This document shows positions 11,585 to 62,034 of a DNA stretch of 64,000 nt, piece after piece. Made by a program: the position numbers and the translations under genes. Origin of the DNA: Pseudomonadota bacterium (lineage in GTDB: Bacteria > Pseudomonadota > Alphaproteobacteria > Rhizobiales > Beijerinckiaceae); assembly GCA_021780435.1 (NCBI GenBank), contig JAJXYV010000200.1:1-64000 (forward strand), in the 5' to 3' direction. The notes beneath the pieces are model-generated. The model was not told the DNA's origin and ran no database searches. It saw only the letters and a program-made list of their open reading frames with translations. Position 1 is the first letter of the stretch. Each line of letters starts with the position of its first letter.

Positions 11585-12088
11585 TTACTTTTGGAGTGCT
11601 TTGGCGATCGCGCAGATTGGCGGCATTGGCGCGATGTTCGCAACATCAATGGCTCGCGTCCGACGCGGTCCACCTATAGCCCGAGTGCGCAGGATCTTGT
11701 CGATGATGGGAATGAAGAAGCACAATGACTTGCCTGAGCCAGTGCCAGTGGTCACTACATAGCTGGCGCCCGAGGCGGCTCTCTGGATCGCTTCTACCTG
11801 GTGCTTATAGAGATCGAACGGCGGTTCAGGCTCTTCATGTGCAGGGCCTGGCTGTCGAAAGAATTTCGCCGTGTCGCTGTGCAGTAGGCCGCCTACGACG
11901 AGATCGCCGATCGACGCTCCGACCTGAAAGTGAGGGTTTAGTTGAAGGATAGGCTCCGGCCAGAACCGATCACTCGCGTACTGCTCATCGATACGCGCCC
12001 GAATATCCGGAGAACGCATTCTCGTAAATGATCGGGCGAAGTCACTGTACTCGCCGACAACGCGGCGATCTAGATCAAAGACATCCAT
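11585..12088 (-). pseudogene. SF2 DNA helicase, N-terminal stump
   Basis: A 167-aa frame whose first ~147 residues look like the N terminus of a large DEAD/DEAH helicase: an N-terminal block with ending ILQLNPHFQVGAS, then LYKHQVEAIQRAA and Walker A TTGTGSGKS with the following FFIPIIDKIL. Coding similarity ends near 11648 at RTRAI, where I would expect the next motif; the final ~20 residues are unrelated. The full protein would have been over 1000 residues. Such helicases occur in several phage-defence systems, but the system cannot be named from this stump. It has a good RBS (gaggg) before the ATG. Confidence 0.65.
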
Positions 12089-12185
12089 CCGTCACCCACC
12101 CTCTTTCAACAAAGCGCCAAGCTCGGTAAACGGCCGCGATAAACCGGCCAATTTGCGCCTGATCCGCCTCTCCGCCCCGCATCAT
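12075..12185 (-). CDS. Tiny ORF coupled to the antitoxin gene
   Basis: A 36-codon frame starts at ATG 12185, overlapping the antitoxin stop as ATGA, and ends across the helicase start at 12088. The position is where a toxin gene would normally begin, but the product is too short for known toxins and I see no motif. It may be a truncated toxin start or chance. Confidence 0.25.
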   Translation of the reverse strand: MMRGGEADQAQIGRFIAAVYRAWRFVERGWVTDGCL

Positions 12186-12376
12186 TTTTTGCCGCCGGAA
12201 CCGACTGTCTTCGCCTGCTGCTCCGACTCTATTGTCTTCAACCGCTCGTATTCCTCGACTGCCAACACGACAACGACCGCCCGGCCGTGCTTTTCGACCG
12301 TCACGGGCTCAGCCCGAGCCATGTCAATAAGCCGACCGAAGTTGTACTTCGCATCTCTAGCCGATAGCGTTTGCAT
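12182..12376 (-). CDS. Phd/YefM family antitoxin, apparently orphan
   Basis: A 64-aa protein. DAKYNFGRLIDMARAEPVTVEKHGRAVVVVLAVEEYERL is typical of Phd/YefM antitoxins: an N-terminal DNA-binding fold and a C-terminal toxin-neutralising tail. No toxin gene of normal size follows; only a 36-codon coupled frame and then a helicase stump. A dyad of two TGGCCA boxes lies upstream (12411-12425). It is either an orphan regulator or the survivor of a rearranged pair. Confidence 0.75.
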   Translation of the reverse strand: MQTLSARDAKYNFGRLIDMARAEPVTVEKHGRAVVVVLAVEEYERLKTIESEQQAKTVGSGGKK

Positions 12377-12482: not shown

Positions 12483-13748
12483 TCATCGGAACGGGGCGGC
12501 TTGCAGGAGATCGGCATTCTGCGCGACAATTGTGCACCAGCGTTGTGCGCGCGTGAGCGCATTGTAAAGCAGTCGCCGTTTGTGCTCGGCGTCTCCGCCA
12601 ATCTGATAGGGCCATAGGACAAAGACGCCCTCGAACTCGCGATTCTTAGCCTGCTGTACGGTCATGGCCACGAAATCGTGGTTGTCCGCCCCGTAGCGCT
12701 GGCGATGAACCGCCACCTGCCGTGTGATGACTACCTCGATATCGGCACGGCTGAACTCCGTCCGACCCCGAGCCCGCGCCTGATGTCTCACCCACGTGCA
12801 AGCTTCACGGACAGGGCCTGACCGCGGAAGAGCTTCAAGCGCTGCTAGGGCGTTGGTCACTGACGCCACACCGTCGAGTTGAAACCCTTGGATTAGAGCA
12901 GCCGTCTCATCCTGCTCCGATCGCTCCCATCGGATCGCATAGGGTCCGTTTCGTTGGGCCCCGCACGGATTCTCACAAACACGGCGCACCACGCTGTGCG
13001 CGAAGCCGCCTTGAAGCGACGGGGTGATCACGGCGACCCGCCCGCCTTGACGCCAACGAATGGCGCTGGCCAGCATAGCGGCCGCGACTGGCACGCCCTG
13101 CGCCGCCAAGATTCGAAATCCGTTTCCCGCGACCGGCGCAGCCCCGCCGCGAATTGCTATTGCGGCAGCCAGCAGGGCCGGCACGCTGGTACGGCGAACC
13201 TGATTCAAGACCTCCGGCTCGCAGGCGCCACGCATCCACCCGATCAGCGGGTTCGGGCGCAGTGCGACGTCGAGACACTGAAATTCGTCCGCAGCAATAA
13301 GCGTGCGCGCTGATTGAGCCAGCGCACACAGCATCCTCAGTCGCTGAGGCTTAAGATCCTGCGCCTCGTCCACCAGGACGATGGGGAAACTCGCCGCGGC
13401 CCAGCCACGCACTTCCGACTGCTCGAGCAGAAGGCCGGCGGCATCGCATTGCGCATCATACTGGTCCTCGCGCAACAGCTGCACACCAAGCACCGCGGCG
13501 AGACCGCGCCAACGGCGCAGGAGCCGCCAAGCGAAACTGTCGACAGTCACGCATTCGAAGTGTCCCTTGAGTCCTGGAACGCTCCGAAGCTTTTCGTTTA
13601 ACCGGCGTCGCGCGCCATGCATGAAGGTCAGCGCCAAGACGCGTTGTCCCTCTCTGAGGGGCGTCGCGCCGAGTGCTTCGCCCAAGGCCTCCATCAATCG
13701 AAAAGTCTTGCCGCATCCGGCCGCGCCCTCGACCGCAAAGAGCGTCAT
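12483..13748 (-). CDS. UvrD/Rep-like SF1 helicase, GajB-like
   Basis: A 421-aa protein beginning almost directly at Walker A (VEGAAGCGKTF, residues 6-16). Further SF1 motifs are LTFMHGARRRL (Ia), VLVDEAQDL (II), ADEFQCL (III) and the C-terminal LLYNALTRAQRW (VI). It overlaps the upstream ATPase/TOPRIM gene by 4 bp (ATGA). An OLD-family nuclease plus a UvrD-like helicase in this order is the layout of Gabija phage defence. The protein is somewhat shorter than the reference GajB, so Gabija-like is the safe label. Confidence 0.8.
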   Translation of the reverse strand: MTLFAVEGAAGCGKTFRLMEALGEALGATPLREGQRVLALTFMHGARRRLNEKLRSVPGLKGHFECVTVDSFAWRLLRRWRGLAAVLGVQLLREDQYDAQCDAAGLLLEQSEVRGWAAASFPIVLVDEAQDLKPQRLRMLCALAQSARTLIAADEFQCLDVALRPNPLIGWMRGACEPEVLNQVRRTSVPALLAAAIAIRGGAAPVAGNGFRILAAQGVPVAAAMLASAIRWRQGGRVAVITPSLQGGFAHSVVRRVCENPCGAQRNGPYAIRWERSEQDETAALIQGFQLDGVASVTNALAALEALPRSGPVREACTWVRHQARARGRTEFSRADIEVVITRQVAVHRQRYGADNHDFVAMTVQQAKNREFEGVFVLWPYQIGGDAEHKRRLLYNALTRAQRWCTIVAQNADLLQAAPFR

Positions 13749-15574
13749 GGCTGAAAAATTCGGATGTGAGGATTTTGGCCTGCCGCGACCGTGAACCGCG
13801 CATTGTCGCCTCCAAGCAGGACGTCGGTCATGGCGTTCAGCAGCTCCCGGGCCCGCCGGCAGCAGGCGTCGGTAGAGCCGATAGCGTCGGCGACGGCCTC
13901 GTAAGCGATCTGGTCTTGCTTCAATCCATGCGCCGCGCGGTCCTCAGATTTCAGTCGAGCGACCAGCGCCGCGATCGTTGCGGGAGGCGGAGCCACCGAC
14001 TGCGCCAGGGCGGCGATCACTGCGGCTTGGTCGGCCTCCAAGATCCAACCGACGACGTCCTCTAATGTCCAGCCGTCCGGCCACCGTATAATGGCGGCCG
14101 GTCTCGCAACCGCGGCGGCTAGCGCTTGAGCGTATGCCACGCCAGGCCCGTCGCCATCGACCACGGCCGTGATACGTGGATGCAAGCGTGACAGCGCCGC
14201 TGTCGTCGCCTCAACCGCTGCATCGTGGGTCGGCACCACTCCGATATAGGACCCAAAGCGGCTTTCGTCCGCCGCGGCCCAGCTCTGTCGGAGATCAACC
14301 GCACGCACGAGCAGCTTCAGCCAATCGTGATCCGTTCGCCCCTCCGGGACGAGCACGACGTCGTGCATAATCGCGGCGATCGTGTCCACCCGGTTGAGCT
14401 GGAAGAGCTTTCGCACCGCATTTGGCGTTGCCGCCGGAAGTGCGACGGCAAGCAGCGGCACGCAGGACAACGCCCCACCCTCGTTACGCAGCACGGCCAC
14501 GGCTTGCGGGTCCGAAATGGCCGCGACCATCGGCGAGTGCGTCGAGACAAAAGTTTGGGTCGACAGTGCCTGGATGCGATGCACGAGCCGTCGCTGCAAC
14601 GGCGGCGGCACGTGAAGCTCCGGCTCTTCCAACGCCATCCAAAAGCCCTCGTGCACCTCCGCCCGCTGTCGCCCGAATTGCAGCAAAAGAAGGAGATGCT
14701 GCAGCGAAATGAGGCCGCTGCCATGACGGCGCGCGGGCAAGGCTAGCGCGGCGCCCGCCTGTGCATAGTGCGGAACGACCGCTTCGAGCAAACCGTCGCT
14801 GTCGGTCGCGGTCACGCGAAGGTGCAGCCTCGGCTGTGTGCGGAAGAATCCGGCAAGTTCAACGTTGAGCCGCGCAATGATCGGTTCAAGGTGCGCATCG
14901 GCTTCAAGGGGCTGTTGTGGCGCGCGCAGACGGTCGCGTTCTCCGAGCACCGACTCCGCTGGTTGACCCGCGCCCGAGGCTACCACGCGCCTAAAGAGTT
15001 CCGAGCCGAAGGAAACAACCCGATCCCAAGTTCGACTAGCCGGGACCAGGAAAAAGCCGATGTCTCGGATCAACCTGGCCGGCACTGCCGTCCAGACCTC
15101 ATCGACAAACACATCCGCCATCGCGTCGTCGTCGTGGAAGTATCGCGCCGTCTCTACTTCCAGCGAGGGACGATCAAACCGAGCGCTGAATCCGATCTGG
15201 CAGGCCAGCCGCCAAGCCGGATCGTCGCGCGTGGCGGCCGCCGAGCCAGTCGCTGGATTCCACCATTTGATGACGCCGCGGTCGTCTCTGAACCAATCGG
15301 TATGGTCAGCAGGCTCGTCGCCATCGAACCCGATGATTGTTGCGACGAGACGGATTCGGTCGGCGGGCTGGGGATCGCCCCCGAAGAAGTCGTGCTCGGT
15401 CAACGTCCGCACCATGCGGTCGCGACCAAAAAGCAGTGCCAGCGCCTCAACGACTGTTGTCTTGCCGCAGTTGTTGGGGCCAATGAATACGGTGTGCGGC
15501 CCGAACCGGATGTGTCCGGCTCTGATGCCACGAAAGTTCTCGATGCGCATATCGGCAATCTGCATCGCATTCAT
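13745..15574 (-). CDS. OLD-family ATPase with TOPRIM nuclease domain, GajA-like
   Basis: A 609-aa protein. Residues 32-40 (GPNNCGKTT) are Walker A; the ABC-type Walker B is ALEEPELHV, followed by STHSPMVA (H-loop). The second half holds the TOPRIM signature VLVPEGRTDHDWL and VVDGDGPG. OLD nucleases nick or cut DNA; in Gabija, GajA is a nucleotide-inhibited sequence-preferring nuclease working with GajB. Good RBS (AGGGAG) before the ATG at 15574. Likely a complete two-gene defence operon, since no lesion is visible in either gene. Confidence 0.85.
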   Translation of the reverse strand: MNAMQIADMRIENFRGIRAGHIRFGPHTVFIGPNNCGKTTVVEALALLFGRDRMVRTLTEHDFFGGDPQPADRIRLVATIIGFDGDEPADHTDWFRDDRGVIKWWNPATGSAAATRDDPAWRLACQIGFSARFDRPSLEVETARYFHDDDAMADVFVDEVWTAVPARLIRDIGFFLVPASRTWDRVVSFGSELFRRVVASGAGQPAESVLGERDRLRAPQQPLEADAHLEPIIARLNVELAGFFRTQPRLHLRVTATDSDGLLEAVVPHYAQAGAALALPARRHGSGLISLQHLLLLLQFGRQRAEVHEGFWMALEEPELHVPPPLQRRLVHRIQALSTQTFVSTHSPMVAAISDPQAVAVLRNEGGALSCVPLLAVALPAATPNAVRKLFQLNRVDTIAAIMHDVVLVPEGRTDHDWLKLLVRAVDLRQSWAAADESRFGSYIGVVPTHDAAVEATTAALSRLHPRITAVVDGDGPGVAYAQALAAAVARPAAIIRWPDGWTLEDVVGWILEADQAAVIAALAQSVAPPPATIAALVARLKSEDRAAHGLKQDQIAYEAVADAIGSTDACCRRARELLNAMTDVLLGGDNARFTVAAGQNPHIRIFQP

Positions 15575-15658: not shown

Positions 15659-16561
15659 TCATTGAAGCAGTCGCACCAGCGCGTCCGATTGTTCGGCGAA
15701 TTTTCGGGCGTTGGTCTTCCGAAGCCGTTCCAGGTTTTGCAGCTTCCAGCGCGGCCCGGGGAGCTGTTCCAGATGCGGCATATCCAGCAGCGCCCATTGG
15801 GGCTCTGCGGTGACCAGCGACAGCAGAAACCGGCGCTCATCGGCGCTCAGACCTTGCTGAAGCTCACGCATCATTCGCTCGCGCGCGGCCAAGAGCGCAT
15901 CAAGCTCCACAGGTTCGGCGGTCATGCCTGTGAAATTGTGCTCGAACTCCTGGCGGATGTCGCGCAGTGATGGAAACAGGACCTCATGCACCGGCCGGTT
16001 ATGGCTCGCTAGGTAGACGACGAAGGCGCGGCGAATGCCGTTGGTGATTCCCTCATGTGCGAAGAGCTGCAGAACGTCGAACAGATCGCGGGGATGCTGA
16101 CGGTCCATTGCCGCCACCAGCTTGCCGCCATACACGTCATCGAGCGACACGACGGGGATTTCGAGATCGGCCTGCAGCGTCTCGCGCGCATTCTGTTTCA
16201 GCGACGCCCTACGCACCGGAAGGACGGTGCCGCGCATGACGAAGTTGACCTCGATGTTGCCCCGCCGCACCAGCAGCTTGGTCTCGCCGGAATCCGCCGC
16301 AGCCGGCGCATGGGTCTGGAACCCTTGCTTCTGCAGACGAGCCGCGGACTGGCGAATGGCTTCGTTGATGCGCTTGAGCGCCTGCTCGCGCGGCAGCGTG
16401 TGGTCGGGAAACACCAGATCGAGATCGACCGAGAGCCGCGGCATGTCGCGCACGAAGAGATTGATCGCCGTGCCGCCCTTGAGCGCGAACGTGTCGTCAA
16501 CGAGCACGAGCGGCGCGACGCGCGTCAGCAGCCGTGCGCTGTCGAGATAGACCTGGTTCAT
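15659..16561 (-). CDS. abiEii: AbiEii nucleotidyltransferase toxin
   Basis: A 300-aa protein from ATG 16561 (a longer frame starts at 16603 inside the antitoxin gene). KGGTAINLF (28-35) and the paired acidic residues D46/D48 in LSVDLDLVF are the nucleotidyltransferase signature of type IV toxins. VYGGKLVAAMDRQHPRDLFD is the conserved AbiEii core. These toxins modify RNA, halting growth when the antitoxin falls. It overlaps the antitoxin gene by 4 bp. Confidence 0.9.
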   Translation of the reverse strand: MNQVYLDSARLLTRVAPLVLVDDTFALKGGTAINLFVRDMPRLSVDLDLVFPDHTLPREQALKRINEAIRQSAARLQKQGFQTHAPAAADSGETKLLVRRGNIEVNFVMRGTVLPVRRASLKQNARETLQADLEIPVVSLDDVYGGKLVAAMDRQHPRDLFDVLQLFAHEGITNGIRRAFVVYLASHNRPVHEVLFPSLRDIRQEFEHNFTGMTAEPVELDALLAARERMMRELQQGLSADERRFLLSLVTAEPQWALLDMPHLEQLPGPRWKLQNLERLRKTNARKFAEQSDALVRLLQ

Positions 16562-17295
16562 GGCTTCAGCACCAAGAGCCCGTCGCCAGAACGGGACACC
16601 CACGGCCGGTCGCTGCCTTTTGGCAACTGAGATGGATCGAGCTTGCCAGCCCAGGGCTGGGAGAGTTCACGGCCGAGCTGCAGGCACAGGCGCACGGTCT
16701 TGATGCTGGTGCAGCGCTTGAGCAGGTCGCGCAAGACGTCGGCGCGCAGGCTGTATGTGCTCTCGACCAGCTCGCGGGCTTCCTGTAGCGGCTGCCGGAC
16801 GCCGACTTCGCTCAGCACCTCCAGCAACGCGCGTTCCGGCGCCGAGACGAGCGGCCCGCCCTTGCGGTTTTCGAAGGGCCGGACATGCAGCAGCGCGCCG
16901 GGCTCCTCCTTGAAGAGCCGCTTGCGGCGGTACTCTGCCGGGAAGCGCTGGGTGAACCACTCCGGAAGGCGGCCCGCTTTCCAGCCGTAAAGGTCCAGGA
17001 CAGGCCGTTGCGACAGGTATTGGCGTATGCCATGCCAGTCGAGCGCGGATTTTCCGCCAACATGCAATCCGTCGAAGCTCCGCTGCAGCAGAGCGAGGCT
17101 CGGGTGCAAGGCGGGCGGATCGTTCGGTCGGCAATAGACGCCGCGCGCCAGCCGTTGCAGCCAGCCGGCACGGACGTAGTGGACGGCGAGATCGGCCGAT
17201 ATCCCAAGGGCGGCGAGGTCCTCGGAGGTCAGCGGCGTCCCCGGCGCCAGGCGGGTATAGAGCCGATTTAGCTTGTTCCTGTGAGTCGTAGGCAT
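16558..17295 (-). CDS. abiEi: AbiEi antitoxin/transcriptional repressor
   Basis: A 245-aa protein with the N-terminal winged-helix of AbiEi (GTPLTSEDLAALGI to YVRAGWLQRLARGVYC) and a C-terminal neutralising domain (SAPERALLEVLSEVG). I chose ATG 17295 because it lies within the second operator and just 6 bp after a TATAAT box. The family represses its own promoter by binding two inverted repeats, and here two are present. With AbiEii it forms a type IV toxin-antitoxin abortive infection pair. Confidence 0.88.
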   Translation of the reverse strand: MPTTHRNKLNRLYTRLAPGTPLTSEDLAALGISADLAVHYVRAGWLQRLARGVYCRPNDPPALHPSLALLQRSFDGLHVGGKSALDWHGIRQYLSQRPVLDLYGWKAGRLPEWFTQRFPAEYRRKRLFKEEPGALLHVRPFENRKGGPLVSAPERALLEVLSEVGVRQPLQEARELVESTYSLRADVLRDLLKRCTSIKTVRLCLQLGRELSQPWAGKLDPSQLPKGSDRPWVSRSGDGLLVLKP

Positions 17296-17368
17296 ACTAC
17301 GATTATAGCAACAATTCGAAGGCTTGGCCAAGTTTGGATTCAGCGTCACCGTCGTAGCCCTACTACGA
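17286..17368 (-). promoter_or_regulatory. abiE promoter with two 17-bp AbiEi operators
   Basis: Two near-identical dyads TCGTAG-N5-CTACGA lie at 17286-17302 and 17352-17368, about 66 bp apart centre to centre. Between them the minus-strand promoter reads TTGGCC (17326-17331), 18-bp spacer, TATAAT (17302-17307). The proximal operator covers the start codon. Paired inverted repeats match the known AbiEi negative autoregulation. Confidence 0.8.
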
Positions 17369-17603: not shown

Positions 17604-17766
17604 TGCGTGTTTCGGTAATTCCCGGACACCGATTTCGGTAATTCGCGGACAGCGATTTCAGTAAATCCGGGACAAGGATTCCGCTAAATCGCGGACAGTT
17701 GCGGGGGTGGTTTTCGGGAGCGCCGTTCAGGCAATGTTCTCTCTCAAGCTGAATTTGAGAGGGGCA

Positions 17767-19317
17767 ATGCCGAGACGGAAGCAAGCGAAACGAACCACTG
17801 TGAAGGACCTACGATCGATCCTGAGGCTGACGTACGAGCAGGGCCTGTCGGTTCGGGCGATCTCGGAACGGCTGCAGATCAGCAAGACCTCGGTTGCCAC
17901 CTACCTGCTGCGGGCGCGTGAGGCGGGCTTGAGCTGGCCGCTGCCGCCGATTTACGAGAGCGAGGCGGCGTTACAGCGGGCCTTGTTCCGGCGGGTCGGG
18001 CGGCCGCCACAGGACTTGAGCGAACCCGAGTGGCCACGGGTGGCGCAGGAACTCAAGCGCAAGGGCGTGACGCTGACGCTGCTCTGGCAGGAATATCGGA
18101 CGGCTCACCCCGACGGCTATGGCTACACCTGGTTCTGCGAGAAGTTTGACGCCTATCGGCGCCGGGCGAGCCCCACTTTCCGCCACCACCACGCGGCGGG
18201 TGCGGCGATGCAAACCGATTATGCCGGCCCGACGATGGAGGTAATCGATCCGCAAACCGGCGAGATCCGTCAGGCGCAGATATTTGTCGCGGTGCTCGGG
18301 GCCTCGTCGCTGACCTTCGCTATGGCGAGCTTCGGTCAGCGACTGCCAGATTGGATCGAAGGCCAGACCCGGGCCCTGTCGTACTTCGGCGGGGTTCCCA
18401 AAGCGATCGTCTGCGACAATCTGAAGGCCGGGGTCGTCAAGGCGTTGTGGTTCGAGCCGACGCTCAACCAGACCTTTGCCGCCATGGCCGAGCACTACGA
18501 CACGACGATTTTGCCGACCCGCAGCCGCAAGCCGCGCGACAAGGGCAAGGTCGAAGGCGCGGTGCTGATTGTGGAGCGCTGGATTCTGGCCCGGCTGCGC
18601 CATCGGCGGTTCTTCAACCTGACCGATCTCAATGCCGCGATCGGCGGTTTGCTGGAGGAGCTGAACAATCGGCCGATGCGCCATATCGGCAAATCCCGCC
18701 GGCAGGTGTTCGAGGAGATCGAGCGCGCCGCGCTGGCGCCGCTGCCGAGCGAGCCATTCGAATACGCCGAGTGGAAAACGGCCAAGGTGCATCCCGATTA
18801 TCACGTCGAAGTCGACAAGACCTTTTACTCCGTGCCGCACCGTCTGATCGGCCGCCAGGTGGACGTCCGGCTCACCTATCGGGCTGTCGAGATCTTCCAG
18901 GATCATACGCGTGTCGCCAGCCATGTACGCCGCTCCCAGCGTGGCGGCCATGTCACCGTGAACGAGCACATGCCCAAGGCCCATCAGCGTTACGCCAATA
19001 TGACGCCGGCGAGCCTGATCAAGATGGCGGCCCGGATTGGCGCCAACGCCGCCACCCTGGTCGAGCGGATGATGCGTGAGCGCCCGCATCCCGAGCAGGG
19101 TTATCGCTCCGCCATGGGGATCATCGCCCTGGCGCGGCGCTACGAGCGCGATCGGCTGGAGGCGGCCTGTGAGAGGGCGCTCGCCATCAACGCGATCAAT
19201 TACTCCTCCGTGAGCGCCATCCTCAAATCCGGGCTCGACCGCGCGAGCCCTGCCGCCGAACCCGTCAAAGCCACGCCCTCACACGCCAACATCCGTGGCG
19301 GTGCCTATTATCAATGA
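17767..19317 (+). CDS. istA: IS21 transposase IstA
   Basis: A 516-aa protein from ATG 17767 (an in-frame ATG lies upstream at 17734). The N-terminal HTH ([19 protein letters not shown]) is followed by an rve/DDE core: [26 protein letters not shown] and [16 protein letters not shown] supply the three acidic residues. The C-terminal beta domain ([17 protein letters not shown]) is also typical. It cuts and joins DNA together with the IstB ATPase, whose start overlaps its stop (ATGA at 19314-19317). Confidence 0.93.
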
Positions 19318-20111
19318 AGGAAAGGAAGATCCTGATGCTGACCCATCCGACCCTCGACCAGATGCAAGCCCTCGGCCTGCCCGGAATGGCGGCCGCCTAT
19401 CGGCAATTGGCCGAACAGGACAATGCCGCCGATCTCAGCCGCGACGAGTGGCTCGGCCTGATGCTCGATCGCGAAGCCGCCATGCGCGCCGACCGGCGCC
19501 TGACCAATCGGCTGGCCGCAGCCAAGCTGCGCTTTGTAGAGGCCTGTATCGAAGACATCGACTTCGCGTCCCGCCGCGGGCTTGACCGGCGCAACGTCCT
19601 GCAGCTGGCGCAAGGCGCCTGGCTGAAAGCCCATGAGAACCTCATCATCACCGGCCTGACCGGAACCGGCAAAACCTGGCTGGCTTGTGCCTACGGACGC
19701 CAAGCCGCCAGGCTGGACCATTCCGTCCTTTATTTACGGATGCCGCGCCTGTTCGAAGACCTCGCCATGGCCCGCCTCGATGGTCGCTTCCCACGCCTGA
19801 TCGACAAGCTTGCGCGAGTCCAGTTGCTCGTTTTAGACGATTGGGGCACCCACACGCTCAATGACCAGCAGCGCCTTGATCTTTTGGAGATCTTCGAGGA
19901 ACGCTACAGGCGCAAATCCACCTTGATTACCGCCCAGCTGCCTGTTGCCCAATGGCACGACATGATCGGCGAGCCAACCATCGCAGATGCCATCCTCGAC
20001 CGGATCATCCACAACTCCCACCGTATCGAGCTCGAAGGCGACAGCATGCGAAGGAAAAAAGCCGCGCGCCCCTTGACCGAAGCCGAAAACAGCGAAACGA
20101 ATACCAACTGA
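19314..20111 (+). CDS. istB: IS21 helper ATPase IstB
   Basis: A 265-aa DnaA/DnaC-like AAA+ ATPase. Walker [10 protein letters not shown] lies at about 114-122, Walker B LLVLDDWG near 170, and sensor residues in [13 protein letters not shown]. It promotes target capture by IstA. Start ATG at 19314 overlaps the istA stop; a second ATG at 19335 is possible. No lesion seen. Confidence 0.93.
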
Positions 20112-20220
20112 CTTCAACAACCAGGCAACCGAAAACCAGCGCCGCCACGCTGTCCGCGATTTAGCGAAACTGCTGTCCGTCAGTTAGCGAAACCACTGTC
20201 CCGTTTTTGCGAAATACGCA

Positions 20221-20227: not shown

Positions 20228-20704
20228 ACGAAATCACCAGCAAAATCATCACTGAGCTGGAGGCCGGCCGCGTGCCGTGGGTCCAGCCTTGGGGCACGGC
20301 GGCGGCGAAGGCGCCGCTCGCCATGCCGAAAAACGCTGCCACCAGCCGAAATTATTCGGGGATCAATGTGCTGATCCTCTGGGGGTCGGTGATCGAGCAC
20401 GGTTTTCCGGTTCAGGGCTGGGTTACTTTCCGCCAGGCGCTGTCGCTCGGCGGCAATGTCCGCAAGGGCGAGCACGGGACCACCGTCGTCTACGCCGATC
20501 GCTTCATTCCAGATGACGAGAAGAAGCGGGCGCGGGAGACCGGTGAGGAAGCGCAGGCGATCCCGTTCCTGAAGCGCTTCACTGTCTTCAACCTGGCGCA
20601 GTGCGAAGGGCTGCCCGGAGATCTCGCCGTTGACCGTCACTGAACGGCGCAGGGCGGAAAGATCGGTGAAGTAGAGCTGTGGCAAGGGACCTCCAAGCGG
20701 CGCC

Positions 20705-20750
20705 GAATTTTTTGCCGGGACGGGCTCGAGCCCGCCCCGGCAAAAAATTC
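20705..20750. repeat. 46-bp near-perfect palindrome inside the ardC lesion
   Basis: Arms GAATTTTTTGCCGGG (20705-20719) and CCCGGCAAAAAATTC (20736-20750) flank a perfect 14-bp inner palindrome (20721-20734). Only one base pair mismatches. It can act as a bidirectional terminator or extrude a cruciform, and may be the end of an unrecognised small mobile element. Confidence 0.7.
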
Positions 20751-21247
20751 ACACCGGCATCACACGACGAGTCTGCGTCTTTGAATGTTGGCGATACTAA
20801 CCACCAACCCTGACACTGGTGAGACAGGTGCACAGAGTCTGGATAATGTGCAGGTGCCGCCGCCGCAAGCCTATTTCGAGCCGATCAACTGGCACCGCAC
20901 CGCACTACACGAGCTCGGTCACGCCAGCGGCGCGCCGCATCGGCTGAACCGCGATCTCTCCGGCTCCTTCGGCTCCAAGAAGTATGCGTTCGAAGAGCTG
21001 GTCGCGGAAATGAATGCCGCCTTCTGCTGCGCCTCGCTCGGCATCGTGCCGACCGTGCGCCACGCCGACTATATCGGCTCGTGGCTCGACGTGCTCCGCG
21101 AGGATAACCGCGCCATCGTCCGCGCCGCCTCGCAGGCGAGCAAGGCCGCCGACTTTCTCCTCGGCTTTCTTACGGGCGAAGAGCTCACGTCGCCGGCGGC
21201 TGGGCAACAAGCCGCGTAATGCGGGCCTGCGCGGATCGTCGTGGGGT

Positions 21248-22243
21248 CTACGCGAGAACGAGACCCGTCTTCGCAGAGCAGTAGACCCGTTCGTAGCATT
21301 GCTCGATGACCCGCCTGTTGTACCGCGCCAGCATGTCCCGGTTGTTCCGAGTCATCGTTACATTGATCGTGGCCTGCGGGCGCTGCTTCCACGCATCCAG
21401 CGCGTTGGCCACGAAATCAGGCGACGCCCGTCCCTGAACGAGCGTGGCGGCGTCGGCAAAGATGTAATCGACAAACGCGGTCGAGCAGAGATTGAACGAC
21501 ATCGCCATGTGAACGCCATCGGGAATCGGCTGGCTGAAGCCGCGGTCCGACAGCAGACAGTGGTCGTCGTCATACGCCCATACAAAGGCAGCGGCCTGTG
21601 TCGTCCGGTTTTCCATCAGTCCCTTGATCAGCCCCTCGAACAGGTTCGGCCGATCGCTGCCGGTGTGCATCAGCAGGATGAACAGCAGACGCAGCCATTC
21701 AACGTATGTTTGGTCGGAGATGCCGAGCTGGGCGCAAAGATAGGCTTGATGCGGCTTCCGTCCGGTGACGATCTTACGGTACGTCGCCAAAAGCTCGGGA
21801 TCGGTCGGCTCGTAGGACGCAACGCCCGGGAAGCTGTTCAGTACCTTTTCGATGCAGAAGGGGTTGCGGATGAAATTGAGGAGCTTCGCCGCAAACAGAT
21901 CGATGATCTCGGCCTTTATGTCAGCATCGCGCACCGCGAGCTTTGCCAGGAGACCCCTGGTGTGGGATTCCACATTCACCTCGTACTTGTGAAACAGCTC
22001 CTCCAGATTCACACGGAGCCGGCTACCCCCTGGCACGTCGAAGCTGAACAGATCGAGCATAGAAAGCGTTGCGTCGATCGAATGGCCGCGTGGATTTTCG
22101 AGGGCGATCTCGTACGTCTGTCGATCGACCAGCCGAAACGAATAGATTCTGAATTTCCCGCTTGTGCTGCCGGGATTGAGCGCATTGAGCTTCTGCTCCA
22201 CCCGCGGCAGGAAATGCTGGTTGCGTGTCGCGTTTCCTCGCAT
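21248..22243 (-). CDS. Hypothetical protein, cargo gene between ardC and parB
   Basis: A 331-aa soluble protein transcribed against its neighbours. The N terminus (NATRNQHFLPRVEQKLNAL) recalls the His-containing start of DUF4238-type proteins. The body has LDLFSFDVP, EELFHKYEVNVESHT and, near the C terminus, the short motif TMTRNNRDMLARYNRRVIEQC. I cannot assign a function. Its reverse orientation and position inside the ICE backbone mark it as an inserted accessory gene, possibly defence-related. Confidence 0.55.
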   Translation of the reverse strand: MRGNATRNQHFLPRVEQKLNALNPGSTSGKFRIYSFRLVDRQTYEIALENPRGHSIDATLSMLDLFSFDVPGGSRLRVNLEELFHKYEVNVESHTRGLLAKLAVRDADIKAEIIDLFAAKLLNFIRNPFCIEKVLNSFPGVASYEPTDPELLATYRKIVTGRKPHQAYLCAQLGISDQTYVEWLRLLFILLMHTGSDRPNLFEGLIKGLMENRTTQAAAFVWAYDDDHCLLSDRGFSQPIPDGVHMAMSFNLCSTAFVDYIFADAATLVQGRASPDFVANALDAWKQRPQATINVTMTRNNRDMLARYNRRVIEQCYERVYCSAKTGLVLA

Positions 22244-22364
22244 GCGCCGATCCGACCACCTTTCACGACGAGGATAGCATAGGCGAACGTGTCGGCGTGG
22301 CTGGCGCGGCGCCCGCTACGGGAAAGTCCGGGAGAGAGAGCAAGAGGGCTGCGCCGGTCTTCGT

Positions 22365-22419
22365 GACGGGTTGAAAGCCGAGAGAGAGCCTTTCGGCGCC
22401 CGTCGCGGAGACCATCCCG
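22365..22419 (+). promoter_or_regulatory. Structured 5' leader of parB-like gene
   Basis: Outer stem GACGGG (22365-22370) / CCCGTC (22399-22404), inner stem GCCGA (22377-22381) / TCGGC (22393-22397) with a GAGAGAG loop. The sequence tcgtgacgggttgaa and cgcccgtcgcggaga are shared with the ardC leader. A further GAGAGAG run lies upstream at 22332-22340. Confidence 0.6.
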
Positions 22420-24534
22420 ATGGCCACTACTGTTCAGAAGATCACCCTGTCGTCGTCGCGCGACATTCCCTTCAACAAGCTTGTTCTCTCCCAATCGAAC
22501 GTCCGGCGCGTGAAGGCCGGCGTTTCGATCGAGGAGCTGGCCGAGGACATCGCCCGGCGCACGCTCCTGCAAAGCCTCAGCGTCCGGCCGGTCCTCGATG
22601 CCGAGGGCGCCGAGACCGGCATGTTCGAAGTTCCAGCCGGCGGGCGGCGCTACCGGGCGCTCCAGCTTCTCGTCAAACAGAAGCGTCTCGCCAAGACCGC
22701 GCTGGTGCCCTGCGTCGTGCGCGATCCCAGCATCGCCATTTCGGCGGAGGAAGATTCGTTGGCCGAAAATGTCCAGCGCGCCGCGCTTCATCCGCTCGAT
22801 CAGTTCCGCGCTTTCCTGGCATTGCGCCAGAAGGGTCAGTCCGAGGAGGACATTGCCGCGGCATTCTTCGTCGGCGTGAACGTGGTGAAGCAGCGTCTGC
22901 GCCTCGCTGCCGTGTCGGAGAAATTGCTCGACATCTATGCCGAAGACGGCGTGTCGCTCGACCAGCTCATGGCGTTCACCGTGACGAACGATCACGCGCG
23001 CCAGGAGCAGGTCTGGGAAACGCTCCAGCGCTCCTACAGTCAGGAGCCCTATCAGATCCGCCGCATGCTGACGGAACGCACGGTGCGCGCGTCCGACAAG
23101 CGCGTCCTGTTCATCGGCCTCGACGCCTATGAGCAGGCGGGCGGCATTGTCATGCGCGACCTCTTCCAGCAGGACGACGGCGGCTGGCTGGAGAATGTCG
23201 GCCTGCTCGACAGCCTGGTCGCCGAGAAGCTGAAGGCCGAAGCGGTGCAAATCGCCGGCGAGGGCTGGAAGTGGATCGAGGTGAATGTCGATTTCCCGTT
23301 CGGTCACACCCATCATTTGCGCGAACTCGACGGCGCGCCGACGGACCTTACCGCCGAGGAACAGGCGACGATCGAGGCGCTGCAAGCGGATTACGCCAAG
23401 CTGGAGGCCGAATACGAAGGCGCAGACGAGTTGCCCGACGAGGTCGATGCACGCCTCGGCGAAATCGAGACCGCGCTCGCCACCTTCGAGAGTCGGCCCG
23501 TCATCTACGATCCCACCGAGATCGCCCGCGCTGGCGTCTTCGTCAGCATTGGCTCGGACGGCGGCCTGTCGGTCGATCGCGGCTATGTCCGGCCGGAGGA
23601 CGAGGCGCCGGCCGCGACTGATACCGACGGCGAACCCGAGTGCGACGGAGACGCCGAAAATGGCGGTGAATTGTCCACGCCCGCCGTCCAGTGTGCCGTC
23701 ATCACGATTGGCGGCCAGCCCGAAGCCGAGGAGGACGAGGACGATACCCTCAAGCCGCTTCCGGACCGACTGATGAGCGAGCTGACGGCCTATCGCACGC
23801 TCGCGCTGCGGGACGCCGTGGCGAACAATCCGCAGGTCGCGATGACGGCTTTGCTGCACAAGCTCTGCCTCGACACCTTCCAGCACGGCACGGCCGGCGG
23901 CTGTCTGGAAGCCTCGGTCCGCCACATCTTCTTCTCGATACAGCCGACGGACCTGAAAGACAGTCCGTCCGCCAAGGCGGTCGCGGAACGGCATGAGGCC
24001 TGGAAACTCGACCTACCGAAAGATGACGCCGCGCTCTGGGACTGGCTCGCAGCTCTTGACGAGACCAGCCGCCACGCGCTCCTCGCGCATTGCGTCTCGT
24101 TCGGCGTCAACGCGCTCTACGAGAAAGGAGACCGCTATGGCGGCCCTGGCGTCTCAGTTCATGGCGTCCAGCACCGTCTCATCCAGGCAGACCGTCTCGT
24201 GTGCGCGGTTGGACTCGACATGGTCGAAGCCGGCTGGCGGCCGACGGTCGACAACTATCTCGGCCGCGTTACCAAACCTCGCATCCTCGAGGCCGTGCGC
24301 GAGGCGAAGGGCGAGCAGTCCGCTCAGCTCATCGACCACCTGAAGAAGGCCGACATGGCGAAGGAGGCCGAACGGCTGCTCGACGGCACAGGATGGCTGC
24401 CCGAACCGCTGCGCACGCTGGATGCCGCGATAGCCGAGTCGACCGGTGGTGATCCCGCCGGAGACGATGACGCGCTGCCGGCCTTTCTCTCCGACGACGA
24501 AGAGGATGAGCCGGCCGTGATCGCGGCCGAGTGA
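22420..24534 (+). CDS. Large ParB/RepB-like partition protein
   Basis: A 704-aa protein. The N-terminal ParB/sulfiredoxin-like domain (about 15-120) contains LVLSQSNVRR, VPAGGRRYRALQLL and EDSLAENVQRAALHPLDQF, the CTP-binding and arginine-rich boxes. A helix-turn-helix follows (SEEDIAAAFFVGVNVVKQRLRLA). The long C-terminal half has an acidic stretch (about 395-450) and a conserved ICE-type tail. It is about twice the length of chromosomal ParB, as is usual for these elements. It may bind ICE DNA to stabilise or organise it; its real role is not established. Confidence 0.85.
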   Translation: MATTVQKITLSSSRDIPFNKLVLSQSNVRRVKAGVSIEELAEDIARRTLLQSLSVRPVLDAEGAETGMFEVPAGGRRYRALQLLVKQKRLAKTALVPCVVRDPSIAISAEEDSLAENVQRAALHPLDQFRAFLALRQKGQSEEDIAAAFFVGVNVVKQRLRLAAVSEKLLDIYAEDGVSLDQLMAFTVTNDHARQEQVWETLQRSYSQEPYQIRRMLTERTVRASDKRVLFIGLDAYEQAGGIVMRDLFQQDDGGWLENVGLLDSLVAEKLKAEAVQIAGEGWKWIEVNVDFPFGHTHHLRELDGAPTDLTAEEQATIEALQADYAKLEAEYEGADELPDEVDARLGEIETALATFESRPVIYDPTEIARAGVFVSIGSDGGLSVDRGYVRPEDEAPAATDTDGEPECDGDAENGGELSTPAVQCAVITIGGQPEAEEDEDDTLKPLPDRLMSELTAYRTLALRDAVANNPQVAMTALLHKLCLDTFQHGTAGGCLEASVRHIFFSIQPTDLKDSPSAKAVAERHEAWKLDLPKDDAALWDWLAALDETSRHALLAHCVSFGVNALYEKGDRYGGPGVSVHGVQHRLIQADRLVCAVGLDMVEAGWRPTVDNYLGRVTKPRILEAVREAKGEQSAQLIDHLKKADMAKEAERLLDGTGWLPEPLRTLDAAIAESTGGDPAGDDDALPAFLSDDEEDEPAVIAAE

Positions 24535-28100: not shown

Positions 28101-29497
28101 GCTACCACGCCGAGCTGTCAGCGCGGAATCGGCGCCTGCGCGTCCACTACCTGCTCGAACCCGGCTGGAAGGCCGATGCGGCGATCCAAGGTCTCGGCCG
28201 CACCAACCGCACCAACCAGGCACAACCGCCGCTCTTCCGTCCGATCGCCACCGACGTGAAGGCGGAGAAGCGTTTCTTGAGCACGATCGCGCGCCGCCTC
28301 GACACGCTCGGCGCGATCACCCGCGGCCAGCGCCAGACTGGCGGCCAGGGCTTGTTCCGGCCGGAGGACAATCTCGAAAGCCACTACGGGCGCGACGCGT
28401 TGCGGCAGCTCTACATGCTGCTGGTCCACGGCAAGGTGGACGGCTGCTCGCTTCAGACCTTCGAGGACGCCACCGGCCTGAAGCTGATGGACGCCAACGG
28501 CATCAAGGACGAGTTGCCGCCGATCACCACCTTCCTGAATCGCCTGCTGGCGCTGACCATCGATCTGCAGAACGTGCTGTTCACGGCGTTCGAGCAGTTG
28601 CTGACCGCACGCATCGAAGGCGCTGTCGCGTCCGGGACCTACGATGTCGGGCTGGAGACGCTGCACGCCGAAAGCTTCGCGGTCACTGACCGGCGCGCGA
28701 TCTACACCCATCCCGGCACCGGCGCGGAGACGCGCCTGCTGACCATCATCCAGCGCGAGCGCAATCGTCCTGTGACACTGGACGATGCCCTGGATCGGCT
28801 TTCCGATCCGCGCGCCACGCTGCTGATCAACGAGCGCTCCAGCCGTGCGGCCGTGCAGGTCCCAGCGCCGAGTCTGATGCTCGACGACGGCGAGATCGAG
28901 CGGCGCGTGCGGCTGATCCGGCCGATGGAGCACCATCGCCTCCCCTTGAAGATGATGGCGGAGAGCCATTGGATGGAAGCCGATCGGGAGCGCTTCGCCG
29001 CCGCCTGGCAGGCCGAGCTCGCCGAGGTTCCCGCGTTCACCGACAGCACAATCCACATCGTCGCCGGCCTGCTCCTGCCGATCTGGAAGCGCCTGCCCAA
29101 CGAGTCGACGCGCGTCTATCGGCTTCAGACCGATACAGGCGAACGCATCATCGGCCGAAAGGTCTCGCCCGCCTGGGTGGCGAGCGGGCTCGCAACCGAC
29201 ACACCGGCGCTGACACCGGATGCCGCCTTCGCCGCCCTCATGGACGGGCGGACGGTCCTCGACCTTGCCGAAGGCCTGCAGCTCCGCCGCGTCCGCGTCA
29301 TGGGTGCGAACCGCATCGAGCTTACCGGATTCAACGACACGATGCGCGATCGGCTGAAGGCCTTTGGCCTCTTCCATGAGATCATCTCCTGGAAGCTGCG
29401 CATGTTCGTGCCGACCGACGCGAGCGGCATCGAGGCTCTGACGAAGGTGCTCGATCGCTATACGGTCGAACGCATCGGCGAGCGCGAGGCCGCGTGA
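25184..29497 (+). CDS. Strawberry-notch family methylase/helicase
   Basis: A 1437-aa protein. The N-terminal part is N6-adenine methyltransferase-like: LEPSAGTG from residue 147 and NPPF from 213. The middle is an SF2 helicase with Walker A GDGTGAGKGRQ (about 497-507) and DESH near 607. The C-terminal helicase lobe has EAGGTGRSYH near 966 and QGLGRTNRTNQ near 1002, typical of the Sno family. Such proteins are backbone genes of ICEs and plasmids and may protect or process transferred DNA. I chose ATG 25184 since the longer frame overlaps the upstream gene. Ends TGATG with the toprim gene. Confidence 0.85.
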   Translation: MTNPSSSAAARSAVPSLAPASAAIAQAAWLLLPDLERGRRIDAGILRAAMESAFGASDAAGAWDWKTAYDACEVATVLLLRKYGNALFRKAGSPVAALPMLAKIASLLPTHTRRSEESQALQQFSTPIPLGVAACAAAAITPADRVLEPSAGTGLLAILAELAGGSLILNELAEARAALLDRLFPGIAVTRFNAAQIDDHLDVAIAPSVVLMNPPFSAMANVDRRMADAALRHVTSALARLCEGGRLVAITGSSFAPGNPAWTDAFACLQERGQLVFSAAIDGVVYAKHGTTIDTRLLVIDKQPAVDPGVFPDSPGVAPDAATLLAWVIERVPPRLPIEASIAVTGARPAIPRTVRASAMRPSSVPALPEPDAVELAYETVDWTPPEGMRLTDALYEEYGLQSIRIPGSPAHPTKLVQSAAMASVAPPKPSYRPHLPANVITEGSLSDAQLESVIYAGEAHSGFLTDYWSVDATFDVVTAARDDTENRVRFRRGWFLGDGTGAGKGRQVAGILLDNWLKSRRRAVWISKSDKLIEDAQRDWSALGMERLLVTPLSRFRQGTPIRLAQGILFTTYATLRTDERGEKLSRVRQIVEWLGSDFDGVIIFDESHAMQNAVGGKGERGDQAASQQGRAGLRLQHALPNARVVYVSATGATTVHNLAYAQRLGLWGGEDFPFATRAEFVEAMEDGGVAAMEVLARDLKALGLYAARSLSYEGVEYELVEHQLTPEQVRIYDAYAGAFTIIHNNLDAAMRTANITGETGTLNAQAKSAARSAFESAKQRFFGHLLTSMKTPSLIRSIEHDLETGHAAVIQIVSTGEALMERRLAEIPTEDWNDVQVDITPREYVLDYLAHSFPVQLYEPFTDSEGNLCSRPVYRDGQPVESREAVARRDRLIEKLASHPPVPGALDQIVQRFGADVVAEVTGRSRRIVRKGDRLMVENRAGSANLAETAAFMDDAKHILVFSEAGGTGRSYHAELSARNRRLRVHYLLEPGWKADAAIQGLGRTNRTNQAQPPLFRPIATDVKAEKRFLSTIARRLDTLGAITRGQRQTGGQGLFRPEDNLESHYGRDALRQLYMLLVHGKVDGCSLQTFEDATGLKLMDANGIKDELPPITTFLNRLLALTIDLQNVLFTAFEQLLTARIEGAVASGTYDVGLETLHAESFAVTDRRAIYTHPGTGAETRLLTIIQRERNRPVTLDDALDRLSDPRATLLINERSSRAAVQVPAPSLMLDDGEIERRVRLIRPMEHHRLPLKMMAESHWMEADRERFAAAWQAELAEVPAFTDSTIHIVAGLLLPIWKRLPNESTRVYRLQTDTGERIIGRKVSPAWVASGLATDTPALTPDAAFAALMDGRTVLDLAEGLQLRRVRVMGANRIELTGFNDTMRDRLKAFGLFHEIISWKLRMFVPTDASGIEALTKVLDRYTVERIGEREAA

Positions 29498-29687
29498 TGC
29501 CGCGCGACGCTTCCGTACTGGCGCACCGTCTCGCGCACGAGGCCGAGGCGGTATGCCGCCACTATCTCTCCAATGGCCGGCGCGAGGGCCGCTATTGGCT
29601 GGTCGGCGACGCGCGCAACACGCCGGGCCGTTCCATGTTCGTCCGGCTGAAAGAGTCACCCAAGGGACCAGCCGGCAAATGGACCGA
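29497..29687 (+). pseudogene. Native toprim gene, 5' fragment split by the RIT element
   Basis: ATG 29497 overlaps the preceding stop (TGATG). It encodes the N terminus MPRDASVLAHRLAHEAEAVC to GKWTD, then the frame passes into the RIT element and ends at 29796 after some 36 element-derived residues. The matching remainder resumes at 35281 (DAATGEHGDLLD). Uninterrupted, this would be a ~340-aa TOPRIM protein of the DUF7146/toprim type, a probable primase-like ICE replication protein. Confidence 0.85.
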
Positions 29688-29795
29688 TTATGTTGCGCCG
29701 CGAGTTATGTTGCGGCCCCGCGCCGGGCGGCCGTTTTGCGAGGGATCGGCGGCTTCTGCGCAACATAATCTCATCACGTCGGGGAGGGTCGCGTG
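29682..29795. repeat. RIT element left terminal inverted repeat
   Basis: About 110 bp nearly identical (inverted) to 35143-35256. It contains TTATGTT boxes at 29688 and 29706 and an inverted one at 29761-29768, probable binding sites for the recombinases. An open frame in phase with the host toprim gene runs through it to TGATG at 29794-29798. Confidence 0.85.
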
Positions 29796-30839
29796 ATGCC
29801 CCGCGACGCTTCCGAGCTGGCGCGGCGTCTCGCCCGCGAGGCCGAGGCGGTCTGCCGCCATTACCTGTCGAAGGGTCGACGCCAGGGCCGCTACTGGATG
29901 GTGGGCGACGTCCGCAACACGCCCGGCCGATCGATGTTCGTGCGGCTGAGCGGGCCGGACTCCGGCCCCGGCGCCGCCGGGCGCTGGACCGATGCCGCCT
30001 CGGCCGAGCATGGCGACCTGCTCGACGTGATCCGCGAGAGCTGCGGGCTCGTGGAGTTCCGCGAGATTGCCGAGGAGGCGCGACGCTTTCTCTCGCTGCC
30101 CCGCGCCGAACCGCCGGTCGCGCCAAGACCGCCAGGGCCGCAGGGCTCGGCCGAAGCGGCGCGCAAGCTCTGGGCCATGGCCAAGCCGCTCGCCGGCACC
30201 TTGGCCGAGACGTACCTCCGCGCCCGCGGGATCACGACCGTCCATCATGCGGGCGCATTGCGGTTTCATCCGCGGTGCTATTATCGCCCGGACGAGCATG
30301 CACCGACCGAGATCTGGCCGGCGATGATCGCTGCCGTCACCGATCTTTCCGGCGCGATCACCGGCGCGCATCGCACCTGGCTTGCCCCGGACGGCTTGGG
30401 CAAGGCGCCGATCGACACGCCGCGACGAGCCATGGGCGGCCTTCTTGGCCACGCCGTCCGGTTCGGCGTGGATGCTGACGTCCTCGCCGCCGGCGAAGGC
30501 ATCGAGACGATGCTGTCGCTGCGATGTGCGCTACCCGCCATGCCCATGGCCGCAGCGCTGTCCGCGAGTCATCTTGCCGCCTTCCAGTTCCCCTCGACGC
30601 TCCGCCGTCTTTACATAGTCCGCGACGCCGACGTTGCGGGCGATACGGCGGTCGCGGTGCTCACCGAACGAGCCGAAGCCGCTGGAATCGAGGCATTGGT
30701 TCTCTCCCCGCGCCTCGGAGACCTCAACGAGGATCTGCAAGCGTTCGGCTCCGGCGCCATTCGCGCAACCGTGCGCAACCAACTCGCCCATGAAGACGCG
30801 GTTCGCTTCATGCGCCGGAGGATGGTCAGGACAGGGTGA
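29796..30839 (+). CDS. TOPRIM protein, RIT-borne copy in host operon orientation
   Basis: A 347-aa protein starting at ATG 29796, which overlaps the stop of the frame entering from the interrupted host gene (TGATG). It has a primase-like N-terminal region (AEHGDLLDVIRESCGL), ALRFHPRCYYRP, then the TOPRIM core GEGIETMLSL and RRLYIVRDADVAGD. Its C-terminal half is close to the host remnant at 35281-36138. It should be translated from the ICE operon and so replace the destroyed native gene. Confidence 0.88.
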   Translation: MPRDASELARRLAREAEAVCRHYLSKGRRQGRYWMVGDVRNTPGRSMFVRLSGPDSGPGAAGRWTDAASAEHGDLLDVIRESCGLVEFREIAEEARRFLSLPRAEPPVAPRPPGPQGSAEAARKLWAMAKPLAGTLAETYLRARGITTVHHAGALRFHPRCYYRPDEHAPTEIWPAMIAAVTDLSGAITGAHRTWLAPDGLGKAPIDTPRRAMGGLLGHAVRFGVDADVLAAGEGIETMLSLRCALPAMPMAAALSASHLAAFQFPSTLRRLYIVRDADVAGDTAVAVLTERAEAAGIEALVLSPRLGDLNEDLQAFGSGAIRATVRNQLAHEDAVRFMRRRMVRTG

Positions 30840-30864
30840 CCGAAGCCGGCACGCCGTCGCCGAT

Positions 30865-31860
30865 TCACAAGGCCTTCAAGAAGGCCATGAGGTCCTTGTC
30901 CTCCTTCCATGAGCGAGCCGGCCGCGGCTGCCCCACCTCGCAGAGTGCGACGGCGTTGGCCTTCAGCGTAAGGTCGATCTCGGCGTAGATGTTGGTCGTG
31001 CTGATCGAGACGTGTCCGAGCCAAGCGCGGATGGTGTTGATGTCCACGCCGGCGAGGACCAGGTGGCAGGCCGTGGTGTGCCGGATCACGTGCGGAGTTA
31101 TCGTCCGATTGGCCAGTTCCGGGACCTGGGCCGCACAACGCTCGATCAGTCGATAGACCCCGAAGCGGGTGAACGGCGTCCCGAGCCGGCTGACGAACAC
31201 GGCGTCTTCGCCAGCGCGACCGGTGATCTCGTCCGCCAGAACGCGCTCGGTTTCCGGCCACAGTGGGCACTGGCGCGTCCTGCCGCCTTTGCCGAGTAAG
31301 GTGGCGAGATCGTGCCCGCCGTTCCGCGACCCGATCTGCAGATCGCGCACCCTCAGCTGGGTCGCTTCGGAGACCCTTGCGCCGGTGTTGTAGAGGAAGA
31401 GCAGAAGCGCGTACTCGCTCCGGCCGCGCCGCGTCTTGCGGTCGGGCGTCGCCAGCACCGCCTCCATCTCCGCCCTGGTCAGCCATCCGACCGGCGGCGG
31501 CATGGACCTCTTCGACGCGATGGCCCGGATGTGACCGCACCATTCAACATGGGTCGGATCCCGGCTGCCGACGAAGCGCGCGAACGCCCGGATGGCCGCC
31601 AGCCGCTGGTTGCGGGTCCGTGCGGTGCAACCTCGATCCGTCTCCAGATGGGTGAGGAACTCCAGTACGTGTCCAGACGTGAGGTCCCATACGGCCAGCC
31701 GGTCCACGGGCTTGCGCACCTTCCGGCTGACGAAGGGCAGCAACAGGCTGAAGGTGTCGCGGTAGCTCTTGCGTGTGTTCCGGGCGAGATTGCGTTCGGT
31801 AACGATGTGCTCGCACAGGAACCGGCGGAGCCACGGGCCGAGGGTTGCGAGGTCAGCCAT
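30865..31860 (-). CDS. Tyrosine recombinase, RIT third gene (RitC)
   Basis: A 331-aa integrase-fold protein from ATG 31860 (an upstream in-frame codon exists at 31878). N-terminal SAM-like core-binding region, then NTGARVSEATQL (catalytic Arg), TPHVIRHTTACHLV (His-x-x-Arg), LGHVSISTTNIYAE (His and nucleophilic Tyr). Its start overlaps the ritB stop by 8 bp. All three recombinases seem needed in RIT elements, though their separate roles are not well defined. Confidence 0.88.
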   Translation of the reverse strand: MADLATLGPWLRRFLCEHIVTERNLARNTRKSYRDTFSLLLPFVSRKVRKPVDRLAVWDLTSGHVLEFLTHLETDRGCTARTRNQRLAAIRAFARFVGSRDPTHVEWCGHIRAIASKRSMPPPVGWLTRAEMEAVLATPDRKTRRGRSEYALLLFLYNTGARVSEATQLRVRDLQIGSRNGGHDLATLLGKGGRTRQCPLWPETERVLADEITGRAGEDAVFVSRLGTPFTRFGVYRLIERCAAQVPELANRTITPHVIRHTTACHLVLAGVDINTIRAWLGHVSISTTNIYAEIDLTLKANAVALCEVGQPRPARSWKEDKDLMAFLKAL

Positions 31861-34059: not shown

Positions 34060-34104
34060 GTTGTTGGAGGCGCTAGCTTCCCGACGAAGCGGGGGCGACG
34101 GAAG

Positions 34105-35142: not shown

Positions 35143-35256
35143 CACGCGACCATCCCCGACGTGCGGAGATTATGTTGCACAGAAGCTGCCGATCCCGCGC
35201 AAAACGGCCGCCCAGCACGGGGCCGCAACATAATCTCCGGCGCAACATAATCGGTC
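35143..35256. repeat. RIT element right terminal inverted repeat
   Basis: Inverted counterpart of 29682-29795 with about 12 mismatches. It carries TTATGTTGC/GCAACATAA boxes at 35170, 35224 and 35242. In the minus direction an open frame crosses it to TGATG at the copy 3 start. Confidence 0.85.
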
Positions 35257-35279
35257 TTATGTTCAACTGCACATAAGAC
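35254..35279. repeat. 26-bp dyad at the RIT/host junction
   Basis: GTCTTATGT (35254-35262) and ACATAAGAC (35271-35279) are perfect 9-bp arms around an 8-bp centre. The layout resembles a tyrosine-recombinase core site. It has no counterpart at the left junction. Confidence 0.6.
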
Positions 35280-35280
35280 G

Positions 35281-61939: not shown

Positions 61940-62000
61940 GTTCGCCTCCTGGCAGGATTGGTCCTGCGCGATAGAAGGCGATTAGCCGGGGTGTTCTCAT

Positions 62001-62018
62001 CCTGTGCAGTTGCACAGG
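62001..62018. promoter_or_regulatory. tra box, TraR-type operator upstream of the AHL synthase gene
   Basis: CCTGTGCAGTTGCACAGG is an 18-bp dyad with the GTGCAG/TTGCAC core characteristic of TraR sites. It lies in the 95-bp gap between the receptor and synthase genes. Confidence 0.8.
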
Positions 62019-62034
62019 GGTCGAGAGGCGGAAC

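Follow-up and report, generated by a model that had tools for sequence, protein, structure and literature searches.

A predicted Gabija system with a compact GajB, from a divergent clade, in an alphaproteobacterial defense island

We analyzed a 64,000-nucleotide stretch of an alphaproteobacterial contig (JAJXYV010000200.1), hereafter called the window, in which a gene for a class 2 OLD protein overlaps a gene for a compact UvrD-family protein (Table 1). Gabija is a common phage-defense system in which a DNA-cutting enzyme works with a helicase-like protein. We conclude that this pair is very probably a Gabija system, belonging to a divergent clade marked by a compact GajB, and that it most likely acts as Gabija, a function predicted here from sequence. 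The pair is a divergent branch within Gabija and not a new kind of system.

Table 1. Coordinates of the gene pair and of neighboring features in the window
Feature	Position	Strand	Description
gajA-like gene	13745..15574	minus	class 2 OLD protein, 609 aa, ABC ATPase and C-terminal TOPRIM
gajB-like gene	12483..13748	minus	compact UvrD-family protein, 421 aa
ATGA stop/start overlap, gajA/gajB	13745..13748	minus	read from DNA; also in relatives
AbiEii nucleotidyltransferase toxin	15659..16603	minus	PDLC02290 E=3e-109, PF08843; upstream neighbor
AbiEi antitoxin/regulator	16558..17349	minus	PDLC02227 E=1.5e-66, PF11459/PF17194
Truncated N-terminal DruE (Druantia type III) helicase piece	11585..12088	minus	DruE3 models E=1.7e-15
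Phd/YefM antitoxin	12182..12376	minus	PF02604 E=1.2e-12

The ORF coordinates, the DNA, and Pfam confirmed the original prediction of an OLD nuclease gene and a UvrD helicase gene with a 4-bp overlap. The junction reads ...TTT CAG CC-ATGA-CG..., where 4 bp are common to the stop and start codons. Above the Pfam cut-offs, the first protein matched AAA_15/AAA_21 and related P-loop families, and the second matched UvrD-helicase and UvrD_C_2. The helicase was also correctly described as short and beginning directly at Walker A, which occupies residues 8-15 (G8-x4-GKT15), 7 residues after the protein start. Between gajB and the preceding in-frame stop, the window contains no ATG, GTG, or TTG codon in that frame, and M1 of GajB is invariant in the family alignment; therefore, barring use of a rare start codon, GajB genuinely has a short N-terminus. 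For the GajA-like protein, M4 may be the true start.

Both proteins contain the core motifs of Gabija subunits. The GajA-like protein has Walker A (G32-T40), Walker B (L315-E319), and H-loop histidine (H346) motifs, together with TOPRIM residues E411, G445, D473xD475, E505, and K552, and all of these are conserved throughout an alignment of 13 sequences, the TOPRIM residues being invariant; the residues were matched to B. cereus GajA by motif and not by structure. Hence, a complete TOPRIM site (E, G, and DxD) accompanies an ABC ATPase, as in Gabija. In the GajB-like protein, motif II (DEAQD) starts at residue 127, a motif V-like segment (VQQAKNRE) at 364, and motif VI (LYNALTRA) at 394. Walker A, the DExQ box, the motif V-like AKNR, and the TR pair of motif VI are kept across family GajB proteins, which thus have the SF1 ATPase motifs found in Gabija (Walker A, DExQD box, and an arginine-bearing motif VI).

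The conserved pair was found at 13 further loci, giving 14 pairs with that of the window, and in all of them the OLD gene is directly followed by a UvrD/PcrA/Rep-like gene, as in Gabija. The start of the family helicase gene coincides with the end of gajA or lies slightly within it, and the encoded protein has 420-441 aa. An alphaproteobacterial MAG (locus L002) contains a pair with 89% and 85% identity to that of the window. Other relatives occur in Achromobacter pulmonis and Robbsia (L003-L005), in Aminobacter and on rhizobial plasmids (L006-L008, L010-L013), on Pseudomonas putida pTTS12 (L009), in Ruegeria pomeroyi (L014), and at L105. A sample of 289 genomes from the class yielded no other close helicase relative, and the branch is therefore rare. 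Searches of phage and viral contig collections returned no relatives of either protein, and a phage-borne origin is therefore unsupported. Two decayed family members were also observed: Burkholderia cenocepacia pHI2424 (L015:4986-6181) has a broken GajB without GajA, and in Mesorhizobium MesoLjLa4 (L075:4001-4813) a GajA gene that is cut short adjoins an IS6 transposase.

The neighborhood of the pair is rich in defense genes, and the proposal of a defense island with AbiE and a helicase stump was borne out. AbiEii and AbiEi match their models at near full length, and the predicted AbiE pair upstream of gajA is intact. The window abiE genes share 81-87% identity with abiE on plasmids of Bradyrhizobium and other rhizobia, and this DNA similarity spans only abiE, not gajAB. 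Downstream of the pair, the DruE stump matches residues 18-140, with homology stopping near 11668; only the N-terminal ~140 residues remain of a DruE-type helicase that can reach ~2000 residues. A complete DruE and its partner gene, which would define Druantia type III, are absent. No toxin ORF was seen adjoining the Phd/YefM antitoxin gene. Different defense genes accompany the relatives: LmuA-LmuB (Lamassu) lies directly upstream of the pair on pTTS12, DrmB (DISARM-type) and a NERD-helicase gene lie upstream on pC5.7d, and L002 has an upstream AbiE of an unrelated subfamily, along with the same ParB-type and ArdC-like genes beside the pair as the window.

Large ParB-type genes are located near the pair in four elements (window 20272-24534, L002 237-4026, L006 2180-4114, and L009 1-1203), and their products are homologous, with 34-74% identity. 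An ArdC-like gene lies beside the ParB-type gene in the window and L002, and the defense genes between differ among the four elements. From the homologous ParB-type genes and the differing defense genes, we consider it likely that the ParB-type flank marks a site of defense-gene exchange.

The remainder of the window contains genes for a replication initiator, a relaxase, VirD4/TraG, and trb-like functions, where the trb genes were identified by reading their sequence. Most relatives found are on plasmids, 10 of the 33 matching plasmid records are conjugative, and plasmid DNA lacking RecBCD protection is also a published target of Gabija (PMC12407980). Together with the ParB-type element genes near the pair at four loci and the relaxase, VirD4/TraG, and trb genes of the contig, these observations are compatible with a pair that serves the mobile element, by plasmid exclusion or DNA-end processing, and for which phage defense is a side effect. 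We regard this interpretation as improbable, since the pair also occurs beside established anti-phage systems and its canonical relatives are found in numerous chromosomal settings; moreover, the two roles are compatible with each other.

Assignment of the pair to Gabija was supported by profile comparisons with GajA and GajB models. In PADLOC, the top match of the OLD protein was GajA PDLC00086 (E 4.8e-46; residues 4-473, model positions 1-462 of 600), and that of the helicase was GajB PDLC04173 (E 7e-21). The latter match covers about a third of the best model (residues 5-159, model positions 13-161 of 471), and the C-terminal motifs of the GajB-like protein were matched by other PADLOC GajB models. 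Scores were far below those of canonical proteins: family GajA proteins reached 156-174 bits on PDLC00086 compared to 754 (L072) and 889 (L022) for canonical ones, and family GajB proteins reached ~60-85 bits on PDLC04173 compared to 604-1177 for canonical GajB on PDLC00104/PDLC00141. None of the PADLOC models fits the compact-GajB clade closely. Profile-profile comparison aligned family GajA with canonical GajA at E 2.8e-49 over 444 columns and with solo OLD proteins at E 1.1e-22, and aligned family GajB with canonical GajB at E 1.3e-29 over 268 columns.

We built trees that included canonical OLD-helicase pairs and solo OLD proteins sampled across the class, the wider phylum, and plasmids. 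Both trees recovered the 14 family rows as a single clade (100/100). Its sister group comprises 11 canonical pairs in the GajA tree (97/88) and 12 canonical rows in the GajB tree (94/97), and these are essentially the same pairs. AU tests rejected a canonical GajB group without the family (p 0.0012) and a grouping of family GajA with solo OLD proteins (p 0.0066; with all of them, p 0.00025). Thus, both proteins nest among the GajA and GajB proteins of OLD-helicase pairs, in trees that lack the B. cereus VD045 reference, for which the PDB alignments cover only part of the chains. The stem branches that place the family are long, at ~2 changes per column, and some long-branch effect on the placement of the clade could persist. 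Profiles, trees, and AU tests together uphold the original reading of gene order, overlap, and domain content as Gabija-like, and the clade with a compact GajB fits the accompanying guess of a divergent type.

These trees bear directly on the distinctly improbable alternative that an OLD nuclease independently gained a different small helicase of UvrD_C_2 type, so that the pair would be convergent with Gabija and not co-descended. Several properties of the helicase point in that direction. In Pfam, UvrD_C_2 (PF13538) was a strong match and UvrD_C a marginal one; the motif V-like segment reads QAKNRE, as opposed to SKGKE in the sister group; and GajB models were matched only in part. In addition, PcrA/UvrD PDB chains scored as high as B. 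cereus GajB, and the weak fold model is closer to UvrD than to GajB. Structures predicted from four sequences had a pLDDT of 33 for GajA and 67 for GajB, whose model matched UvrD and GajB folds at low TM-scores; the models were used for SF1 identity only. Convergence is opposed by the recovery of the same sister group in the GajA and GajB trees and by the rejection, in the first AU test above, of a GajB position outside the other pair helicases.

Within Gabija, the closest comparison is to the group that is sister in both trees (PDLC00086 GajA with PDLC00104/PDLC00141 GajB; L016, L052, L073, and the fused L072). Gene order, GajA size, OLD ATPase-TOPRIM domains, and an adjacent SF1A helicase are shared with this group, whereas the GajB proteins differ in length (524-614 aa in the sister group compared to 420-441 aa in the compact clade). 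Walker A usually lies near residue 21-30 in sister GajB proteins, one of which (L107) has no matched Walker A, compared to residue 8 in the compact clade. The distance from Walker A to motif II is 147-169 residues in sister GajB and about 116-120 in compact GajB, and that from motif II to motif V is 332-342 and about 236-255 (~237 in the window), respectively. Relative to the sister group, compact GajB is trimmed by ~14 residues before Walker A, 30-50 in 1B, and ~100 in 2B. L072:4001-7579, on Robbsia andropogonis plasmid p3 (NZ_CP139167.1), encodes a single 1192-aa GajA-GajB fusion that scored 754 bits on GajA PDLC00086 and 831 bits on GajB PDLC00141; this natural fusion in the sister group supports a predicted physical complex of GajA and GajB. 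The Robbsia andropogonis strain with the p3 fusion also has a compact pair, on plasmid p2 (L005).

Compactness alone is not new, since B. cereus VD045 GajB is also small (494 aa), with reduced accessory domains, and PADLOC includes short GajB models of 369-471 aa. The compact lineage seems to have reached a short GajB beside a group of long GajB proteins. VD045 Gabija shares with the window a class 2 OLD protein with TOPRIM E, G, and DxD residues, but the window GajB is ~70 residues shorter and similarity to the B. cereus proteins is very low (37 bits for GajA and 26 bits for GajB, by profile). VD045 Gabija is a solved 4:4 complex (PMC10781630, PMC10822852). The accessory domains of B. cereus GajB are unlike those of UvrD (PMC10681800). 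Class 1 OLD proteins (P2 Old, Thermus scotoductus OLD) are likewise ATPase-TOPRIM proteins but are encoded by a single gene without a helicase, in contrast to the overlapping helicase gene of the window. Septu PtuA, retron ATPases, and PARIS AriA have a related ABC ATPase domain and matched weakly; their partners (HNH nuclease, reverse transcriptase, and AriB) are absent, and the partner in the window is UvrD-like. Membership of the pair in a Druantia, Septu, retron, or PARIS system was ruled out by the missing partner genes.

By analogy with characterized Gabija systems, GajA would form a multimer onto which GajB docks, and the trigger would combine GajB ATP turnover with the state of incoming DNA, falling nucleotide levels, or both. 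The DNA state sensed may be linear ends left free of RecBCD (in this host, of AddAB), and the released GajA nuclease would then cut invading phage or plasmid DNA. AddAB is the expected alphaproteobacterial counterpart of RecBCD, and AddA pieces were found at contig ends in the host genome. In characterized Gabija, GajA and GajB assemble into a 4:4 complex, and the GajA TOPRIM and the ATPase sites of both proteins are needed (PMC10781630, PMC10822852, PMC12407980); the system has been proposed to target linear DNA whose ends RecBCD has not bound (PMC12407980, preprint). The helicase activity of GajB is itself in question, and the B. cereus protein showed no DNA unwinding in vitro (PMC10681800). 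Compact GajB lacks the residues ahead of Walker A and the bulk of 2B, and therefore its more likely role would be that of an ATP-driven sensor or docking subunit rather than a processive helicase. A stronger proposal, which we consider unlikely, is that the clade is a distinct Gabija subtype, in which GajB cannot unwind DNA and is purely an ATP-dependent sensor or clamp gating GajA, possibly tuned by conjugative elements to plasmid or phage DNA ends.

A natural clade with core motifs but trimmed accessory regions shows which parts of GajB have been dispensable in evolution, and the compact pair could serve as a minimal system for studying the gating of GajA by GajB. Current profile libraries fit this branch poorly, and its occurrences on rhizobial and burkholderial plasmids may therefore be under-annotated.

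Purifying selection acts on both genes of this overlapping two-gene operon. Between the window and L002, dN/dS is 0.057 for gajA (dN 0.068, dS 1.18) and 0.094 for gajB (dN 0.084, dS 0.89). A chance pair of ORFs was ruled out by these values and by conservation of the overlapping arrangement at the 13 other loci. The DruE stump, the split ArdC-like gene, and the decayed members L015 and L075 might suggest that the locus has degraded into a non-functional remnant amid other debris. This is very improbable, since neither ORF is shortened, their motifs are intact, and dN/dS is 0.06-0.09 relative to L002.

Several other features of the element were observed. The ArdC-like anti-restriction gene of the window (20272-21219) is split into two ORFs, and its counterpart in L002 is intact (320 aa). 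An IS21-type istA/istB insertion (17707-20111) adjoins the split gene and is bounded by multiple short terminal repeats (17609-17698 and 20148-20201), with three tandem 23-nt copies at its left end. At 29488-35879, inverted 552-nt arms that are 93% complementary hold copies of a DUF7146/Toprim_3 gene, and between them are tyrosine recombinase genes (30865-34059), at least two of which are above the Pfam cut-off; this region resembles a recombinase-in-trio element with duplicated flanks. Finally, genes for a LuxI-type autoinducer synthase and a LuxR-type regulator (61256-62760) adjoin the conjugation genes, a position that suggests that conjugation is quorum-controlled.
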